From Deltaproteobacteria bacterium (GTDB lineage Bacteria; SAR324; JACQKK01), in contig JAOUEW010000001.1 in assembly GCA_029858505.1 (NCBI GenBank), positions 248,001 to 312,000 on the forward strand: DNA of 64,000 nt, given 5' to 3'. Below the pieces are notes generated by a model. That model was given only the letters and a program-made list of their open reading frames with translations. It had not been told where the DNA came from and ran no database searches. Position numbers and translations under genes: made by a program. Shown here one piece after another: positions 14,363 to 64,000 of this stretch (its first letter is position 1; every line of letters starts with the position of its first letter).

Positions 14363-16033
14363 TTAGGGCGTTAAGGTAAAGGACGTGCCAGTGTTGATAT
14401 TATTGTAGATCACCCGGATGAAAATCGTAGCGTTGTTGGCCGTGGTGGTCACCACACAATTGTCTGCCGTGGTTCCAACATTCGCCGTGCAGGTGCCAGT
14501 TGGCGCCGTACCCGTGGAATTGGTAAAGGTGGCGACATCGGCATCATCCAGCAGGTTGGTCAAGTTGATGGTGTAGGTTCCCGCCGTGGGATAGACCACT
14601 TTGTAAAAACTAGTGGTAAGCACTTCACCGTTGTGGGCTGTGTTCGGAGTCAACAGAAGAGGAGTAAGGAGGGCCCCCTCGTTCAAGTACTCCGGCCAGG
14701 AAAACAGGGTGAAAGTGGCTCCCAGCGTGGAAACATCGGTGATCTTAATATACACCACCGTGTTGGCCGCCGCCGATGTCACCCCCGTGCAGCTGTCCAC
14801 CAGGGTTCCGGTATTCGCCGTGCAGGTTCCAGTGGCCACGCTGAACAGATTGTTGCTGAACGTGTTGATGTTGGCGTCATTCGTTAGACCCGACATTTTA
14901 ATTTTGTAGTTTTTAGCCAAGGGGAAGGTCACCTTGTAAAAGCCTTCTTTCCGGCCATTTGCCACAGATCCGGTGGTACTGACGCCATCCGGAAGCACCT
15001 TCAGGGGATCCACCTTCATGGTAAAGTTGGTACCCACGCCCGAAATGTCGGTTACTTTGATGAACACATCGGTGTTGGCCGCAGTGGTGGTAACCAAGCA
15101 TCTGTCTCCCGCGGCGGCCGTGTTAACCGTACAGACCCCGGTGGTCAGGGTGAAGATGCTGTCGGAATAGACTGTCACGTCAGCGTTCGCGGTCATTCCG
15201 CCCAGGGAAACGACGTATTCAGAAGCGATGGGAAGGGTGACGCGGTAATAGGCGTTCCCGTTGGCCGGAACGGATCGGTTGTCGATGTTCGAATAGCCGA
15301 CAAGGGGGACATAGGTCAGCACCATGTACAAATCCGGCTGCAGGGTATATCCCGTTCCGAGGCCCGATAGGTCGGTAACCTTAAAATAAATGGTCTGTCC
15401 CGCTGTTACCTGCACGTTGCAGTAGCCGTCTGTGTTGACGATGGCCTGCATGCAACCCGCTGTGGCCGCCGTCACGTATGTATTATTAGTGAAGGCGGTA
15501 ATGTCGGCGTTGGCATTCACACCGCGCATATAGGTTAGATAGGTTCCCGCCGTGGGATAAGTGATCTGATAATAACTGATGCCGTTGGCGGCCACTTGTC
15601 CGCTGTAGGCAGTTCCCTGGGTCAACACAATAGGTCCGCCTGCGCCAGTAGCACCCTCGCTGGCCCAGGCATTGTTCACGGTGACCGTGGTGCTGCCCGT
15701 AACGCCGCTTAAACTGGCCGAAATGGTGGCGGTGCCTGCCGCCACGCCGGTCACCGTGCCCGCCGACACCGTGGCCACACCGGAAGCGCTGGTGGACCAG
15801 GTGGCGGTGGCGGTGACATCTTGGCTGGTTCCGTCCGTCATGGTGGCGGTGGCGGTCAGGGTGGTGGTTAATCCTTTCTTCACCGTGGGGGTGGCCGGAG
15901 TAAGGGCAATGGATACCGGGGGATTGCTTCCGCCTCCACCACCTCCACCTCCTCCACCTCCTCCACCGCCGCAACTTGCCAGCGGCAGGGCCAGCAACAT
16001 CATCCCCCAAAGCAATCTGTTTCCGATACGCAT
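14363..16033 (-). CDS. Lipoprotein with Big_2-like domain and four PPC-like repeats
   Basis: 556 residues from ATG 16033 (RBS GGGAGA). A lipobox LAS-C21 is followed by a run of 14 Gly, then a bacterial Ig-like (Big_2) domain at about 37-120 (TPTVKKGLTTTLTATATMTDGTSQDVT...), then four repeats of 90-105 residues. Each repeat has a Y-x-V-T-P/TAGTY start, a two-Cys loop of the form TG-CTxN...DxC and an IKVTD-SG-GT-FTL end, typical of pre-peptidase C-terminal-like beta sandwiches. The paired Cys suggest one disulfide per repeat. Likely anchored in the outer membrane and exposed. A single-repeat relative lies at 39139-39573. The Gly run is encoded by a slippage-prone CC(A/T) repeat. Confidence 0.8.
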   Translation of the reverse strand: MRIGNRLLWGMMLLALPLASCGGGGGGGGGGGGGGSNPPVSIALTPATPTVKKGLTTTLTATATMTDGTSQDVTATATWSTSASGVATVSAGTVTGVAAGTATISASLSGVTGSTTVTVNNAWASEGATGAGGPIVLTQGTAYSGQVAANGISYYQITYPTAGTYLTYMRGVNANADITAFTNNTYVTAATAGCMQAIVNTDGYCNVQVTAGQTIYFKVTDLSGLGTGYTLQPDLYMVLTYVPLVGYSNIDNRSVPANGNAYYRVTLPIASEYVVSLGGMTANADVTVYSDSIFTLTTGVCTVNTAAAGDRCLVTTTAANTDVFIKVTDISGVGTNFTMKVDPLKVLPDGVSTTGSVANGRKEGFYKVTFPLAKNYKIKMSGLTNDANINTFSNNLFSVATGTCTANTGTLVDSCTGVTSAAANTVVYIKITDVSTLGATFTLFSWPEYLNEGALLTPLLLTPNTAHNGEVLTTSFYKVVYPTAGTYTINLTNLLDDADVATFTNSTGTAPTGTCTANVGTTADNCVVTTTANNATIFIRVIYNNINTGTSFTLTP

Positions 16034-21761: not shown

Positions 21762-21769
21762 CACACCCC

Positions 21770-22130
21770 TCCCGATACTCGAATCCATCGGTTATTCTAT
21801 TCATCCGTTCTGTTCGTGAAAACTGGACGGAAGAAAGCGCATCACTTTTCGGCTTTGAGCTATTTCCCCGAACAACACCCCTCCCTGGCGGCTGCGCCGC
21901 CCGTCCCTCCCCGTCGGAGAGGGACAATACGGCTTAGGCCGAAAAGTGGAGAATAGAATCTGTTTGGTGAATGAAGCCGGACGGAAACAAGCACCCAACT
22001 TTTCGGCTTTGAGCTATTTCCCCTCCACGAAGGGGAGGGGATGCCCCGTCAGGGGCAGGGGAGGGGTGTTGTTGATTCAGCCGGACGGAAGAACGCGCAT
22101 CACTTTTCGGCTTCGAGTATAGAGTGCTGT
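21770..22130. repeat. Dispersed repeat family A, composite copy
   Basis: Between convergent carB and hslU. Contains two direct copies of ACTTTTCGGCTTTGAGCTAT (near 21843 and 21999) and a third variant near 22100, several GGACGGAA words, and hairpins CCCTCCCC/GGGGAGGG (21905-21930; 22020-22070). The same words recur at 29110-29313, 32398-32770, 38519-38712 and 43127-43437. No ORF. Confidence 0.75.
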
Positions 22131-29109: not shown

Positions 29110-29313
29110 CGGCGGGTCTTCCTGACCTCTCCCCCCTACCCCTCTCCCCATTCAGGGAGGGGGGGGTTCGAATCCGATGAGTGATGCACTTGCTTCCTTC
29201 CGGCTGAATCATCCGAACGGCTGAATTGAATAGCCGATGGCTTCGAGGATTGCCCCTCCCTGATTGGGGAGGGGGATGCCCGCAGGGCAGGGGAGAGGTG
29301 TTGTTGGGGTGAG
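29110..29313. repeat. Dispersed repeat family A, copy
   Basis: Contains CTCCCCATTCAGGGAGGGG, then TCGAATCCGATGAGTGATGC, CTTGCTTCCTTCCGGC, GAACGGCTGAATTGAATAGC, and a CCTCCCTGATTGGGGAGG hairpin ending in GAGAGGTGTTGTTG. The first half is nearly identical to 32420-32500. Spans the gap between two minus-strand genes. Confidence 0.7.
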
Positions 29314-32397: not shown

Positions 32398-32570
32398 GTC
32401 CTCACCCCCCTGCCCCCCTCCCCATTTAGGGAGGGGGAAATGGCTCGAATCCGATGAGTGATGCACTTGCTTCCTTCCAGCCTATATTTTTCCGAACGGC
32501 TGAAGAGAATAACCGGAGGATTCGAGTATTGTCCCTCTCCGACGGGGAGGGACAGGCGCCGTAGGCGCCA
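32398..32570. repeat. Dispersed repeat family A, copy
   Basis: Shares TCGAATCCGATGAGTGATGC and CTTGCTTCCTTCC with the copy at 29110-29313 and the CTCCGACGGGGAGGGACAG hairpin words with the other copies. It runs directly into the 50-bp tandem array. Confidence 0.7.
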
Positions 32571-32770
32571 GGGAGGGGTGCTTTAACGGATGAATAGAAT
32601 AGCCGGGGGACTCGAGTAAAGGGAGGGGTGCTTTAACGGATGAATAGAATAGCCGGGGGACTCGAGTAAAGGGAGGGGTGCTTTAACGGATGAATAGAAT
32701 AGCCGGGGGACTCGAGTAAAGGGAGGGGTGCTTTAACGGATACATAGAATAGCCGGGGGACTCGAGTTAG
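32571..32770. repeat. Tandem array, four exact-length 50-bp units
   Basis: Units start at 32571, 32621, 32671 and 32721, each beginning GGGAGGGGTGCTTTAACGG and ending CTCGAGT. The first three are identical and the fourth differs at the GATACAT and the last bases. The unit is the right-hand end of repeat family A plus its flank. The array ends one base before the otsB stop codon. Confidence 0.95.
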
Positions 32771-38518: not shown

Positions 38519-38712
38519 AATAAAGAGGCTGGCCTTTCCAACGGCACCCCTCCCCGTCGGAGAAGGACAATACTCGAATCTATCGGCGGAAAGATTCATC
38601 CTCGCAAATGGTGAAGCCGGAAGGAAGCAAGTACCCAACAATTCGGCTTTATGCCGTTCCCTTCTCCGATGGGGAGGGGATGCCCCCGCAGGGGGCAGGG
38701 GAGGGGTGCTGT
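38519..38712. repeat. Dispersed repeat family A, copy
   Basis: Contains CCCTCCCCGTCGGAGAAGGACAATAC, GGAAGGAAGCAAG, ATTCGGCTTTATG and the GGGGAGGGGATGCCC...CAGGGGAGGGGTGCTG end. The right end joins the antitoxin coding sequence directly (see next feature). Confidence 0.7.
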
Positions 38713-38944
38713 ACACGGCAACAGTCTGGCTCTGGGGATTGAAAAACCCGTGCTGGAATTGCTGGGGGCCGATGCCAGCACGCCCTTCGATATTTCCACC
38801 GATGGACAAGTTCTCATCCTTTCGCCAGTGAAGGATGCCGCCCGCAGGGAGGCTTTTCAAACGGCCTTGACCCAGGTGAACGCCCGCTATCCCAAAGCCC
38901 TGAAGCGCTTGGCGGAGGAGCTCATGGTGTTTCTCTCTCTATAA
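38651..38944 (+). pseudogene. MazE/AbrB-like antitoxin remnant with replaced 5' end
   Basis: From 38714 the frame encodes HGNSLALGIEKPVLELLGAD...PFDISTDGQVLILSPV..., the core of a MazE/AbrB-type swapped-hairpin antitoxin that is normally preceded by about eight more residues of the first strand (of the xxTLTKxGNS type). Here those codons are absent and the frame runs back into repeat family A, which happens to offer an ATG at 38651 and would add MPFPSPMGRGCPRRGQGRGA. The protein would therefore lack its first beta strand. No toxin gene follows; instead the duplicated cysteine desulfurase end is next. Called a remnant. Confidence 0.7.
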
Positions 38945-39057
38945 TTTCACCAGTTTTTCCATGGCCAGTTTCCAGCGTTGAAAGCAATCGTCCAGGTCGG
39001 CCAGCCGGTTGTGCAGCGAGAAGCTGAGCCGCACGGTAGACAGGGCCCGCTGGGGGG
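38939..39057 (-). pseudogene. Duplicated 3' end of the cysteine desulfurase gene
   Basis: 119 bases that match 39757-39875 with two mismatches and the same frame and stop (…DCFQRWKLAMEKLVKL). It encodes only the last ~37 residues and has no start. Together with the full gene's end it forms a direct repeat around the small lipoprotein gene. Confidence 0.95.
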
Positions 39058-39072
39058 GCATCCCCTCTCCCC

Positions 39073-39108
39073 AAAAAAAAACAGCCCGCAGTGAATAGCC
39101 GCGGGCTG
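39073..39108 (-). terminator. Rho-independent terminator of the small lipoprotein
   Basis: CAGCCCGCGG stem, mirrored by CCGCGGGCTG, followed on the minus strand by nine T residues. Confidence 0.85.
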
Positions 39109-39138
39109 AACAAGAAAACAAGAACCAGGGGAAGATCC

Positions 39139-39573
39139 CTACGGAGTGATGGTAAAATTGGCCCCAGCGCCGGACATATCTGTTACCCGAACATACACCT
39201 TGGTATTGGGGGAGGCTGTGCTCACCGTACAGCTGTCATTCACGGTACCGGCGTTTCCCGTGCATGTTCCGGTGAGGACAAGGAAGCCCGAGTCGCTGTA
39301 GGAGTTAGGATTCACATTGCCCGACATGCCGCTCACGGTAATGATGTGGTTCCCCGCCGATGGATAGGAAACTTCGTAATCACTCTTTGAAGAAGAAGCC
39401 ACCGAGCTGTTTGTGGGGACACCAGGCGTTAAAACCGTCGTGGTAAAGCCAGGGCAATAACCATTGCAAGTTTGAATCGTGGTATCACCGCAACCGGCCA
39501 GCGCCAAAATCAACACCACCGTCACAGATTGAAGACCCCCCCAGGTCCATTTCTTCAGACACGGCATATCCAT
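39139..39573 (-). CDS. Small lipoprotein with one PPC-like repeat
   Basis: 144 residues from ATG 39573 (RBS AGAGGAA). Signal peptide and lipobox LALAGC, then a single domain that matches the repeat unit of the 556-residue lipoprotein at 14363: SAGNHIITVSGMSG, TGTCTGNAG...DSC, VYVRVTDMSGAGANFTITP. It ends FTITP where the large one ends FTLTP, and both have a GCCCGCGG terminator. The gene plus terminator lies exactly between the two copies of the cysteine desulfurase 3' end, so it came in as an insert. Confidence 0.75.
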   Translation of the reverse strand: MDMPCLKKWTWGGLQSVTVVLILALAGCGDTTIQTCNGYCPGFTTTVLTPGVPTNSSVASSSKSDYEVSYPSAGNHIITVSGMSGNVNPNSYSDSGFLVLTGTCTGNAGTVNDSCTVSTASPNTKVYVRVTDMSGAGANFTITP

Positions 39574-39756
39574 TATTCCTCTTTTTGATTGGGATGATGC
39601 GTTGTGTTCCCGGATCGCAAAAAAAAGGCCTATTGGCGCGCCTGTTCTTGCAACCTCTCCAACCCATAGTCTTATGATAACACGCGAGGGCGTTCTAAAC
39701 CAATGGAGCATCCGTTTCGCTGTAAATCCGCTTCCTGTCGAATTTTGTTCAGCCCC

Positions 39757-40920
39757 CTATAGTTTCACCAGTTTTTCCATGGCCAGTTTCCAGCGCTGAA
39801 AGCAATCGTCCAGGTCGGCCAGCCGGTTGTGCAGCGAGAAGCTGAGCCGCACGGTAGACAGGGCCCGCTGGGGGGTGAACCCCGCCGCCAGCAAGGCGGG
39901 GGAGGGCTGAGGCTTGGCCGAGGAGCAGGCCGAACCGGTGGAGACGATGAGCCCCTGCTGTTCCAAGTGATGCAAAATGACCTCGGCGGGAACGCCCGGC
40001 AGGGAGACGGACACAATGTAAGGCAGGGCCGCCCCAGAGCGGAAGACCTGCAGCCGGGGGAAGCCCTCCAGAAAGTCTAACCAGCGCTGGTGATATTGGG
40101 CCCGTTCATCGGCTTGGGCGGCCAGCACGGCCTGGGTGCGGCGGGCGGCCGCGGCAAATGCGGCAATGGCAAACGGGTTTTCCGTGCCAGAGCGCAGGCC
40201 CCCCTCCTGCCCCCCGCCGGTGAGCTGGGGTTCCAGCTCGATGGGTTGAAAGCGGATCAGGGCCCCAGCCCCCTTCGCTCCGTGCACCTTGTGGGCGCTC
40301 ACCGACAGCAGCCCCACCCCCGCCTCCCGCCAGGGGATATCTACCTTGGCAAAGGCCTGCACGGCGTCGACGTGAAACACGGCTTTGGGGGCGGCGTTCC
40401 GCAGCATCCGCCCAATGGCCTCCAGGGGCTGGCGGGTGCCCAGTTCGTTGTTTACCGCCATCACGCTCACCATGCGCAGGTCTGGCCCCAGCCGGGGGGC
40501 CAGGGCCTCCAGGTCCACCACACCCTCGGGGGTGGCGGGCAGGGTTTCCACCTGTACCCCTTGGCGGGCCAGGGCGGCGGCGGTTTGTGCCACGGCGGGG
40601 TGTTCCAGGGCGCTGATTAGCAGCCGGTTGGCCTTGGGCCGGGGAAGGGCAAACACCCCCCGCAGGGCCAGGTTCACGCTTTCTGTTCCCCCGCTGGTGA
40701 ACACCACCCCCTGGGGCGGGGCCCCGGCCAGCCGGGCGATTTCTCGCCGGGCCTCCCCCAGGGCTTCCCGGGGAGGGGCGCCATATGCGTGTAAAGAAGA
40801 CGGATTTCCCCCGTCCGTCTCCAGCCAGCGGCGTGATTCTGCCAAGACTTCCGGCAGCAACGGGGTGGTGGCGGCGTTGTCTAAATACAGTCTAAAATCC
40901 ATCCCGTGGGGGGGGTTCAT
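39757..40920 (-). CDS. Cysteine desulfurase (NifS/IscS type)
   Basis: 387 residues from ATG 40920 (RBS AGGA). PLP enzyme that takes sulfur from cysteine for Fe-S and other sulfur cofactors. YLDNAATTPL, GNPSSLHAYG, FTSGGTESVNLAL, the PLP Lys in SVSAHKVHGAKGAG, RSGTENPFAI and the active-site Cys loop STGSACSSAKP are all present. The last 119 bases are duplicated 818 bases downstream with an insert between. No iscU/iscR neighbours, so it is a stand-alone NifS-like enzyme. Confidence 0.93.
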   Translation of the reverse strand: MNPPHGMDFRLYLDNAATTPLLPEVLAESRRWLETDGGNPSSLHAYGAPPREALGEARREIARLAGAPPQGVVFTSGGTESVNLALRGVFALPRPKANRLLISALEHPAVAQTAAALARQGVQVETLPATPEGVVDLEALAPRLGPDLRMVSVMAVNNELGTRQPLEAIGRMLRNAAPKAVFHVDAVQAFAKVDIPWREAGVGLLSVSAHKVHGAKGAGALIRFQPIELEPQLTGGGQEGGLRSGTENPFAIAAFAAAARRTQAVLAAQADERAQYHQRWLDFLEGFPRLQVFRSGAALPYIVSVSLPGVPAEVILHHLEQQGLIVSTGSACSSAKPQPSPALLAAGFTPQRALSTVRLSFSLHNRLADLDDCFQRWKLAMEKLVKL

Positions 40921-55898: not shown

Positions 55899-56024
55899 CC
55901 CGGTAAGGCACAGGGAAACCTTTGTGGAACTTATTTTTTCCCATCCCCCTGCCCCCTTCCCTGGGGGAAGGGGGTTGATTTGGGGGGGGCTTCGCCCCCC
56001 CTGCCCCCTTTTCAGGGCAATCAT

Positions 56025-56136
56025 CCTGTTGACGCAATCCTGTTGACGCAATCCTGTTGACGCAATCCTGTTGACGCAATCCTGTTGACGCAATCCTGTT
56101 GACGCAATCCTGTTGCCGAAATCCTGTTGACGCAGT
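56025..56136. repeat. Tandem array, eight 14-bp units
   Basis: Unit CCTGTTGACGCAAT. Six perfect units from 56025 to 56108, one variant with three substitutions at 56109-56122 and a last one at 56123-56136 with an A-to-G change. Located in the 500-base gap after the histidine kinase gene. Not a CRISPR: no spacers. Confidence 0.95.
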
Positions 56137-61230: not shown

Positions 61231-61860
61231 CTAGCCTGCGCCCCCGGTACCCCGGACCGTCATCAGGTGAAAGATGCCAAAGAACACCCGCCGCTGCTGA
61301 ACGCATTCCAAGCCCGCCTGGGCCAAAAGCTCCAGGGGCCGCCGGTTCCACTGGCAGCCAAAGGGTTTGGCATGGGCCTCCGCCCGGCGGTCCTGCCAGC
61401 GGCCCAGCCATTCCCGGTCGCTGCGGCCGTGCTCCAGCAACAGCAGGTGGCCCCCCGCCCGGCACACCCGGCTCATTTCCCGCAGCGCCGCCACCGGGTG
61501 AGGAAAGGTACACAAAGACAGAGACGTGACCACCGTGTCGAAGTGCCCGGAGGGGTAATCCAGTTTCTCCGCGTCCATCACCTGCAAGGACACCTCCAGC
61601 CCCAGCCGCTGGGCCCGTTGCTGGGCCACGTCCAGCATCACCGGGCTCAGGTCGCAGGCGGTCAGGGGGGTGTTGGGGGGGTAAAACCGAAAATTCTTCC
61701 CCGTTCCGGCGGCCACCTCCAGCACCCGCCCTTTCACTCGGGAGATCATTTCCCGGCGGAGCCGCCACAACCCCAGCCATTCGGGAATGGCCTCCGCCCG
61801 GTCATACCACTTGGCGGCGGCGTCATACTTTTGGCGGATGTCTTCGGCGGTGAGGGGCAT
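61231..61860 (-). CDS. Class I SAM-dependent methyltransferase (UbiE-like)
   Basis: 209 residues. GRVLEVAAGTGKNFRFYPP (motif I), ACDLSPVMLDVAQQRA, VVTSLSLCTFPHPVAALREMSRVCRAGGHLLLLEHGRS are as in UbiE/COQ5-like methyltransferases, the C-terminus with NRRPLELLAQAGLECVQQ. The substrate is not known. Its ribosome site, start and first eight codons (MPLTAEDI) are duplicated 1512 bases upstream in front of the next gene. Confidence 0.85.
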   Translation of the reverse strand: MPLTAEDIRQKYDAAAKWYDRAEAIPEWLGLWRLRREMISRVKGRVLEVAAGTGKNFRFYPPNTPLTACDLSPVMLDVAQQRAQRLGLEVSLQVMDAEKLDYPSGHFDTVVTSLSLCTFPHPVAALREMSRVCRAGGHLLLLEHGRSDREWLGRWQDRRAEAHAKPFGCQWNRRPLELLAQAGLECVQQRRVFFGIFHLMTVRGTGGAG

Positions 61861-61880
61861 GGGGGTCTCTGGTTGAAGAG
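61837..61880. repeat. Direct repeat, copy at methyltransferase start
   Basis: 44 bases matching 63349-63392 with one mismatch. Covers the RBS region, the ATG and codons 1-8. The 61881-62073 stretch beyond it holds no recognised gene. Confidence 0.95.
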
Positions 61881-62073: not shown

Positions 62074-63372
62074 TTATTGTGCTGCCTCCTGTATCTTCTG
62101 CTGCCACGCCAGCACCACGGCTTTGTTTCCCTTGGCCACCGCTTCAATGATTGTTGCCAATTCCGCTGTTTCGGCTTTGTGCGTTCCAATATAACCTGAA
62201 CGGATCAACCCGAGCATATCGGCCTCTCGGAGGTAAGTTCCGTCCAGGGCGTTGTAACTGATACGAACTCCACCCTTCGGGCCTTTGGCCTCAGGGGCGG
62301 AAAGGATATGGTTTAGATGGTCAAGAGAGACAAGAAACGATTTATGCGTGTTGCCTGAGATTTTGCGCCTCACAAATTTGAAGAAAAATGGATTACGGCT
62401 CAGCCTGTAATCGCTCAAGGAACCTTCAAAGTCAGGAATTTGCATGCGGGCTATTTCATCACGCAACTGCTGGTTAGGACGAAACAGCCAATCAGGGTTG
62501 TCACTGTCTTGCTTGTCTTCTTCAAGCATCTTGTACTGGAGCATAATGATGTTGCCCCGGGTTTCGTTGATGTAGATGAGGTCAACACCCAACAGCCTCT
62601 CCAAGGGCAGTTTGTTGGCGGTGTAAATCACTAGTTGCTCGCCGTCCTTCCGAAAAACGGCCCGCCCTGTCACATCATGGGATATCTTATCGAAGCCGGG
62701 CAGTTGTGTTGCATCATGATGCACCACGTTATCCTCATAGAGGTAAGTTCCGATAAGACCGAGGCAGGATGATGCGCCCCTCTTCAGAACAACTTGTTCC
62801 GGTGTGTCATTACCCCGAATTCTAAAAATATCCATTGCCGACCTAATGGCATCTTCTTGTGCCCAGGGGTTATCTGTAACGCGCCTCAACCCAGGTAAAA
62901 GGGAAAAAGCCATATCCAGGGCCGAATGATTTTCAGGATTTTTTGCCAGAGTTTCGACTAGGTGAGCACTAAGTTTGGGCGTGAGGTTTGTAATTCCCCC
63001 TTTATCAGGCATGCGATCAACCAGGATGCGCTTCATTTTTGCGTCAGAGATTAACGCTTCAATGGCTTGAAAGGAATCAGGGTGCAAGGCACGCAGTTCT
63101 TTAATGGTGAGGCGAGAATCGAACGTGCTCACGGTTGTTTTGCGGGAAACCGTGGCCAGGTAGCACTTGGTTCCATTGCCTTCTTGTATTTCCAGCAAAC
63201 AAAGCGTTGGTGGTTTGATCGGCTGGAGGACAGAGTGGGTCTTTACTATGGTGAGGTGTTTGAACCCCTGCCGCGAATTGTGCAAGGACTCCGAAAAATC
63301 CTCATCAAAGCGAATCAAAATCATGGGCTTCTTCTGAACCCATTTGCAGATGTCTTCGGCGGTGAAGGGCAT
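62074..63372 (-). CDS. Unrecognised 432-residue protein, AT-rich insert
   Basis: 432 residues, starting at ATG 63372 inside the direct repeat, so its first eight residues (MPFTAEDI) and its ribosome site are copies of those of the methyltransferase. An earlier Met at 63402 is not favoured. No TM helices or signal sequence. Central region: KRGASSCLGLIGTYLYEDNVVHHDATQLPGFDKISHDVTGRAVF and DLIYINETRGNIIMLQYKMLEED, the latter reminiscent of the ExK-type nuclease core (D...Q-Y-K), which would suggest a PD-(D/E)xK-like fold; this is a weak visual match. Lower GC than its neighbours. Confidence 0.7.
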   Translation of the reverse strand: MPFTAEDICKWVQKKPMILIRFDEDFSESLHNSRQGFKHLTIVKTHSVLQPIKPPTLCLLEIQEGNGTKCYLATVSRKTTVSTFDSRLTIKELRALHPDSFQAIEALISDAKMKRILVDRMPDKGGITNLTPKLSAHLVETLAKNPENHSALDMAFSLLPGLRRVTDNPWAQEDAIRSAMDIFRIRGNDTPEQVVLKRGASSCLGLIGTYLYEDNVVHHDATQLPGFDKISHDVTGRAVFRKDGEQLVIYTANKLPLERLLGVDLIYINETRGNIIMLQYKMLEEDKQDSDNPDWLFRPNQQLRDEIARMQIPDFEGSLSDYRLSRNPFFFKFVRRKISGNTHKSFLVSLDHLNHILSAPEAKGPKGGVRISYNALDGTYLREADMLGLIRSGYIGTHKAETAELATIIEAVAKGNKAVVLAWQQKIQEAAQ

Positions 63373-63392
63373 GGGGGTCTCTGGTTGAAGAG
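63349..63392. repeat. Direct repeat, copy at start of the 432-residue gene
   Basis: Partner of 61837-61880. It ends exactly at codon 8 of the downstream gene. Confidence 0.95.
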
Positions 63393-63411
63393 TGCGCTTC
63401 AATTTGAACCA

Positions 63412-63513
63412 TCACTTAAAATCCCGGAACACGAAGAACACCGCTCCCATCAGGCACAGGCCCGCCCAGGCCGAGAGCGATGCCGAGATCAAGAGGGTCA
63501 CCGGGCGCGTCAT
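63412..63513 (-). CDS. Possible 33-residue single-TM protein
   Basis: MTRPVTLLISASLSAWAGLC continues LMGAVFFVFRDFK. One TM helix spans nearly the entire peptide. No strong RBS. If real, it was originally the gene just upstream of the methyltransferase before the insertion. Tentative. Confidence 0.4.
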   Translation of the reverse strand: MTRPVTLLISASLSAWAGLCLMGAVFFVFRDFK

Positions 63514-63619: not shown

Positions 63620-63874
63620 ATGACCACCGTCCGGGTACGCCCCAAACACCAAATCACCCTACCGACCGCCATTGTCAACCAAGCGGGCCTGCACCCCAAT
63701 GACCTGCTGGAAGCCAGTTACGTCAACGGGGTCATCACCCTGGTGCCCAAGGGCAGGGGGGCGGGGGAGGAAGATTTGATGGCCTACGCGGGCATTGCGG
63801 AGGGCCTGTATGGAAAAACCCGCCAAGAAATTGACGCGAACATCCGCCAACTGCGTGACGAGTGGGAACGATGA
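63620..63874 (+). CDS. AbrB/VapB-like antitoxin
   Basis: 84 residues. AbrB swapped-hairpin start TTVRVRPKHQITLPTAIVNQAGLHPNDLLEASYVNGVITLVPKG followed by a helical toxin-binding tail. Its stop overlaps the PIN-domain gene's ATG (ATGA), the standard arrangement of toxin-antitoxin pairs. Confidence 0.9.
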   Translation: MTTVRVRPKHQITLPTAIVNQAGLHPNDLLEASYVNGVITLVPKGRGAGEEDLMAYAGIAEGLYGKTRQEIDANIRQLRDEWER

Positions 63875-64000
63875 CTACTCCCCTGGCCTCCCTGCGTGGG
63901 CACCGGGTGTATCTCGACACCAATTGCCTCATCTATTTTTTCATCCGCGACCCCGATTATTTTGAGGCGGCTTTTGATATTTTGAATGCCTGTAAACAAG
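63871..64000 (+). CDS. PIN-domain toxin (VapC-like), 3' end outside window
   Basis: The first 43 residues are visible: GHRVYLDTNCLIYFFIRDPDYFEAAFDIL, with the first catalytic Asp in the YLDTN motif. A ribonuclease toxin of the VapC type by homology and by its overlap with the antitoxin gene. Runs off the window. Confidence 0.88.
   Translation, partial: MTTPLASLRGHRVYLDTNCLIYFFIRDPDYFEAAFDILNACKQ

Follow-up and report, generated by a model that had tools for sequence, protein, structure and literature searches.

The displaced end of the cysteine desulfurase gene

The window, by which we mean the whole 64,000-nucleotide stretch analysed here, carries an intact cysteine desulfurase gene of the NifS/IscS type (nifS; 39757-40920, minus strand; Pfam Aminotran_5 E 7e-63, NCBIfam NifS E 2e-85), the last 119 bp of which occur twice. 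When the window was compared with itself by blastn, positions 38939-39057 and 39757-39875 formed a gapless direct repeat with 98.3% identity (E ~3e-54). This pair is far beyond chance, and no other low-copy repeat pair in the 2.42 Mb of this genome that we surveyed has its length and identity, bar a tRNA-array duplication. Copy 2 (39757-39875, minus) is the 3' end of the intact gene up to its TAG, and copy 1 (38939-39057, minus) is a displaced nifS tail, 38 codons plus stop, lying outside any intact gene. Identity breaks off sharply at both ends of the repeat; the two mismatches (CAG/CAA and CTA/TTA) are both synonymous in the nifS frame, and both copies encode the identical 38 residues followed by a TAG stop.

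The 699-bp insert between the copies (39058-39756) consists of a lipoprotein gene with its terminator, a 184-bp leader and, beside copy 1, a partial REP-like fragment. The predicted lipoprotein (39139-39573, minus; 144 aa, lipobox LAGC) belongs to a multi-copy, weakly PPC-like family of this genome; it has no Pfam or NCBIfam match above cut-off, and a search for phage relatives returned none. Its intrinsic terminator hairpin lies at 39082-39108 (minus), and the Rfam matches within the insert were all sub-threshold and overlapped this terminator. A previous, sequence-only reading of this DNA had described a 119-bp desulfurase 3' end present twice with two mismatches, an intact host gene and, between the copies, a complete lipoprotein gene with its own terminator; on all three points, including the exact coordinates of the repeat, our results agree with it. 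We regard the insertion of a cargo gene with preservation of the host gene end as well supported. Other members of the PPC-like family, with one to many domain repeats, were noted at 14366-15757 in the window and, elsewhere in the genome (contig:position), at C4:566851-569226, C9:1-7200 and C5:1-1100, several of them sitting at contig ends.

Broken sequences adjoin copy 1 at either end. On the inner side, the partial REP-like sequence GGGGAGAGGGGATGCCCCC (39058-39076, minus; consensus GGGGAGGGGATGCCCCC, with 23 exact copies in the surveyed 2.42 Mb) meets copy 1 via a G/C run, and alignment of nifS (GCTGGGGGG) with the REP-like sequence (GGGGGCATCCCC) at this junction reveals a common G-run of 5-6 bp. 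On the outer side lies the relic of an AbrB/MazE-type antitoxin, the partner of a Doc toxin (38711-38941, plus; TIGR02609 doc_partner E 0.0025, below cut-off), which has no start codon and whose frame runs on into the putative first six codons of the toxin itself (MVFLSL; 38924-38944, plus) and terminates within copy 1. Judging by two relatives (L071 and L072), in which a matching antitoxin is directly followed by a Doc gene starting ..FLTV(E/D).V..H, MVFLSL is probably the start of a Doc toxin that was truncated by copy 1. A Deinococcus plasmid relative of the relic is likewise annotated as AbrB/MazE beside a death-on-curing toxin; a search for plasmid relatives gave none at 1e-5, and relaxing the limit to E 1 yielded four weak relatives.

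At its 5' side the antitoxin relic is broken into by a REP/MITE-like element (38541-38712, unstranded), for which 129 alignments with E < 1e-3 were found in the surveyed genome (2.4 Mb), self included. Palindromic elements of this REP/MITE-like kind are abundant (in the window at 38541-38712, 21764-22127, 29126-29306 and 32400-32580, and elsewhere) and often adjoin gene ends and junctions. The window also holds tandem arrays at 32570-32767 and 56023-56134, with 50-bp units and 14-bp units (ATCCTGTTGACGCA).

Further gene ends duplicated around small cargo

We surveyed 2.42 Mb (87%) of this 2.79-Mb, 14-contig SAR324-like genome, taken as stretches, for low-copy direct repeats with a minimum length of 35 bp, a minimum identity of 88% and a spacing below 6 kb. 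Four pairs, the nifS case included, proved to be duplicated gene ends around small cargo, with repeats of 119, 58, 51 and 64 bp whose copies differ by 1-3 substitutions. In the second case, the last 58 bp of an rlmI-like methyltransferase gene (C4:168788-168845 and C4:169677-169734) enclose a VapBC module, and 18 bp separate the displaced rlmI tail from a convergent gene that is intact.

The remaining two are neighbours at the end of the window. In the third case it is the 5' end of a methyltransferase gene (61231-61860, minus) that is duplicated: a 51-bp repeat detected by blastn self-comparison (61830-61880, minus) recurs with 94% identity as a displaced copy at 63343-63392 (minus), and the cargo is a 442-aa ORF (62074-63402, minus) whose frame starts in or beside that copy. 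This ORF had no match in Pfam, NCBIfam or PADLOC, and, lying beside an AbrB/PIN module, it is possibly a defence gene of no known family. In the fourth case, a displaced 64-bp 3' end of a DUF486 gene (63408-63471, minus; C4:311408-311471) is separated from the intact end (C4:312414-312477, 414 bp beyond the window end) by an AbrB antitoxin gene and a PIN/VapC toxin gene that continues past the window end (63620-64000, plus; Pfam MazE_antitoxin, PIN E 4e-16). The displaced ends of the third and fourth cases are 15 bp apart and preserve the old junction between the DUF486 and methyltransferase genes, which indicates that cargo was added on either side of one ancestral gap.

Contig C4 (0.98 Mb, G+C 0.60) accounts for all four cases; C5 (0.65 Mb, G+C 0.57) and the other contigs surveyed yielded none. 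The inserts have a G+C of 0.49-0.55 against 0.60, which is suggestive of insertion, 3-15% of same-length segments being equally low. Over the gene end the identity between copies is 94-98%, and, judged from this one genome, either copy could be that of the donor or that of the recipient. That the genome is assembled in 14 contigs lends some room to an assembly chimera, and yet the substitutions between copies, the clean junctions and the recurrence of one layout at four separate loci make such an artefact scarcely credible.

The sequence-only reading had seen in the nifS locus the arrangement left by site-specific integrators. Phage 21 and e14 provide the classical precedent, their site-specific integration at icd restoring the gene end, and the likeness is that incoming DNA brings a substitute 3' end while the original end is displaced. 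A remnant or non-autonomous element of such an integrase would account for the restored gene end, for a repeat ending at the stop codon and for the synonymous differences between copies. However, the ORFs of the four inserts (0.7-1.5 kb) include neither a transposase nor an integrase, the target genes are four unrelated ones, and the inserts stay below the 1.5 kb mark. Moreover, no common word of more than 7 bp that could serve as a core site was found among the four repeats, no insert-end motif common to the four cases was detected (the search for a core or end motif gave words of 7-8 bp, at chance level), and one case of four lies at a gene 5' end. We thus consider an integrase origin very improbable and do not retain that part of the earlier reading.

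Single gene ends in relatives, and control scans

The relatives available for comparison include SAR324 cluster genomes, the nearest of which represent other genera with nifS 55-60% identical. In seven relative loci (two of which, L020 and L029, possibly represent a single record), the nifS orthologue has a single tail and no lipoprotein. The earlier reading had proposed a comparison with relatives lacking the lipoprotein, taking two copies of the 119-bp segment in such relatives as evidence against insertion; what we find in all seven loci is one tail. The other half of its expectation, an empty site in a close relative, is only approached, as the loci come from other genera and the genes downstream differ: in most of them nifS is followed by a FabG-like dehydrogenase, and the neighbours are not those found here. 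The single tail thus agrees with a lineage-specific insertion, although these loci are not a true empty site. Similarly, the rlmI orthologue in relative genome G001 has one tail and no adjoining vapBC.

Control scans of 476 kb of other bacterial loci and of 391 kb of a SAR324-order genome, G031 (0.87 Mb together), returned some low-copy repeat pairs, none of the gene-end type; at the rate of the present genome ~1.4 pairs would be expected there, and the zero found is therefore not proof of enrichment.

A model of additive integration

In the three 3'-end cases the repeat terminates 0, 2 and 4 nt beyond the stop codon (Fisher p ~0.002, computed post hoc on three events, against a null of randomly placed staggered duplications required merely to keep the gene whole). 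Such a fit would be expected of incoming DNA that had the gene end, and not the downstream sequence, in common with the resident, and it favours homology confined to the gene over a randomly staggered cut, which does not predict it.

Our preferred explanation of the nifS locus, with a probability of about 0.5, is an additive integration that combined one homologous crossover with one illegitimate junction. In the short incoming DNA, a second nifS 3' end would have been followed by the lipoprotein gene and, last, by the REP-like sequence. On recombining with the resident nifS end, it would be joined on one side by homology inside the gene end and on the other by an illegitimate junction at the G-run that occurs both in the nifS coding sequence and at the REP-like end. 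This junction could perceivably arise in two ways. First, it may form during strand invasion, as in homology-facilitated illegitimate recombination. Second, the fragment may circularise, the circle then entering by a single crossover. In either event, the gene would remain whole, with the cargo immediately downstream of its stop codon, and the last 119 bp of the resident gene would end up beyond the cargo as a dead remnant. The repeat geometry, the sharp ends, the exclusively synonymous differences, the three sister cases, the inner junction of copy 1 and the single tails of the relatives speak for this model, within which we infer the outside origin of the cargo, the order of events and the joining in two steps. 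The genome encodes ComEC, and uptake of DNA by this organism is thus possible, this domain being found also in bacteria not known to be competent.

The model requires an earlier event to explain why the doc relic is cut exactly at the nifS stop. Conversely, both broken neighbours of copy 1, the partial REP and the doc gene cut after six codons, would be explained by a single event if the lipoprotein gene already lay behind nifS and the repair of a later break deleted the stretch from REP to doc and patched the gap with a 119-bp copy of the nifS end close by. Then, however, the exact end at the stop codon would be a coincidence, and the sister cases have unbroken neighbours, as witnessed by the intact gene next to the rlmI tail and by the preserved DUF486-methyltransferase junction. 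We therefore judge a filler of this kind to be rather improbable.

There is also the possibility of a true long target duplication, in which the target was cut with a stagger of 50-120 bp, the cargo was taken up at the break and repair synthesis copied the target. This has been proposed for restriction-modification genes in Helicobacter pylori, where the footprint is the same, with long, variable target repeats around a selfish-type module (PMC3031569, PMC3874152, PMC1643837), and the repeats of 51-119 bp seen here fall within the ~50 to several hundred bp that characterise it. Nevertheless, all three 3'-end repeats hug their stop codons, where random staggering would not place them, and neither an enzyme nor a terminal sequence is common to the inserts; we consider this origin unlikely, if worth serious consideration, and return to additive integration as the preferred reading.

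Relation to known systems

Restriction-modification genes are reported to duplicate some 100 bp of their target on insertion (PMC3874152, PMC3031569, PMC1643837), a footprint described as 'insertion with long target duplication' (Nobusato et al. 2000 and Furuta et al. 2010, cited there and in PMC4978471). The likeness to our cases lies in a small selfish-type gene set, direct target repeats of ~100 bp and the lack of a transposase or integrase. The match concerns the footprint and not membership in the restriction-modification class, the cargo here being the lipoprotein, two AbrB/VapB-PIN toxin-antitoxin modules and one ORF of no known family. Our cases differ further in that the repeats coincide with gene ends and that they are known from one genome. 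Our literature search for toxin-antitoxin modules with long target duplications found no direct description.

In E. coli, a plasmid with a lacZ-end fragment integrated mostly with duplication of the homologous gene end over 109-950 bp, for which a single crossover was invoked (PMC3240628), and a comparable model has been put forward for displaced 3' ends at T6SS loci with immunity arrays (PMC5361080). These systems share with ours a duplicated or displaced gene end and cargo added behind a conserved gene and, if our model holds, the combination of one homologous and one illegitimate junction. The difference is that we have a genomic footprint alone, with very short homologous ends (51-119 bp) as the repeats. 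Together with the ~100 bp reported for restriction-modification genes, the E. coli lengths remove the earlier objection that the nifS repeat is anomalously long for a target duplication.

The locus is thus a further example of a known footprint and not a new system, differing in its cargo and in its fit to gene ends, and the layout looks like a recurrent, partly known route by which genes are added without breaking a neighbour. This bears on the ways in which chromosomes acquire single genes and toxin-antitoxin modules with neither a transposase nor an integrase. One might go further and suppose that, within this lineage, small cargo, toxin-antitoxin modules included, spreads in units anchored to gene ends. 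Each unit would carry the final 50-120 bp of a conserved neighbouring gene, which would provide landing homology in any strain with that gene, and the old end would be left as a datable scar; the units would amount to integrase-free cassettes with gene ends for attachment sites. We hold this broader proposal to be doubtful and offer it as speculation. The four footprints of the same layout, three of them within 4 nt of a stop codon, nevertheless define a searchable signature, namely a complete gene, cargo and then a displaced copy of the gene's end. Its frequency in a large set of genomes would indicate whether insertion at gene ends is general and whether the cargo is enriched in toxin-antitoxin modules.

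Other repeat pairs in the genome

Several other pairs returned by the survey were set aside. The 37-bp pair at C4:448597/449753 is intergenic and not a gene end, those at C4:614488/615430 are internal repeats within a large ORF, those at C4:910890/912529 are tandem paralogues, and the one at C9:6764 reflects lipoprotein domain repeats. The repeats at C4:545130-547768 are Rhs-type fragments; this region presents a row of orphaned Rhs-type 3' fragments, each with a different tail ORF. The 182-bp pair at C4:774395/775274 is a duplicated tRNA-Gly segment. At this locus (L115:12383-13336; C4:774395-775455) tRNA-Gly and ~110 bp of its leader are duplicated around a 161-aa ORF, beside tRNA-Met, and one tRNA-Gly 3' end looks recombined with tRNA-Met at the T-loop. 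Finally, a 53-bp terminator hairpin is duplicated around a 184-aa membrane ORF (C4:569982-570034 and C4:570743-570795; locus L077), an arrangement that may belong with the four gene-end duplications.
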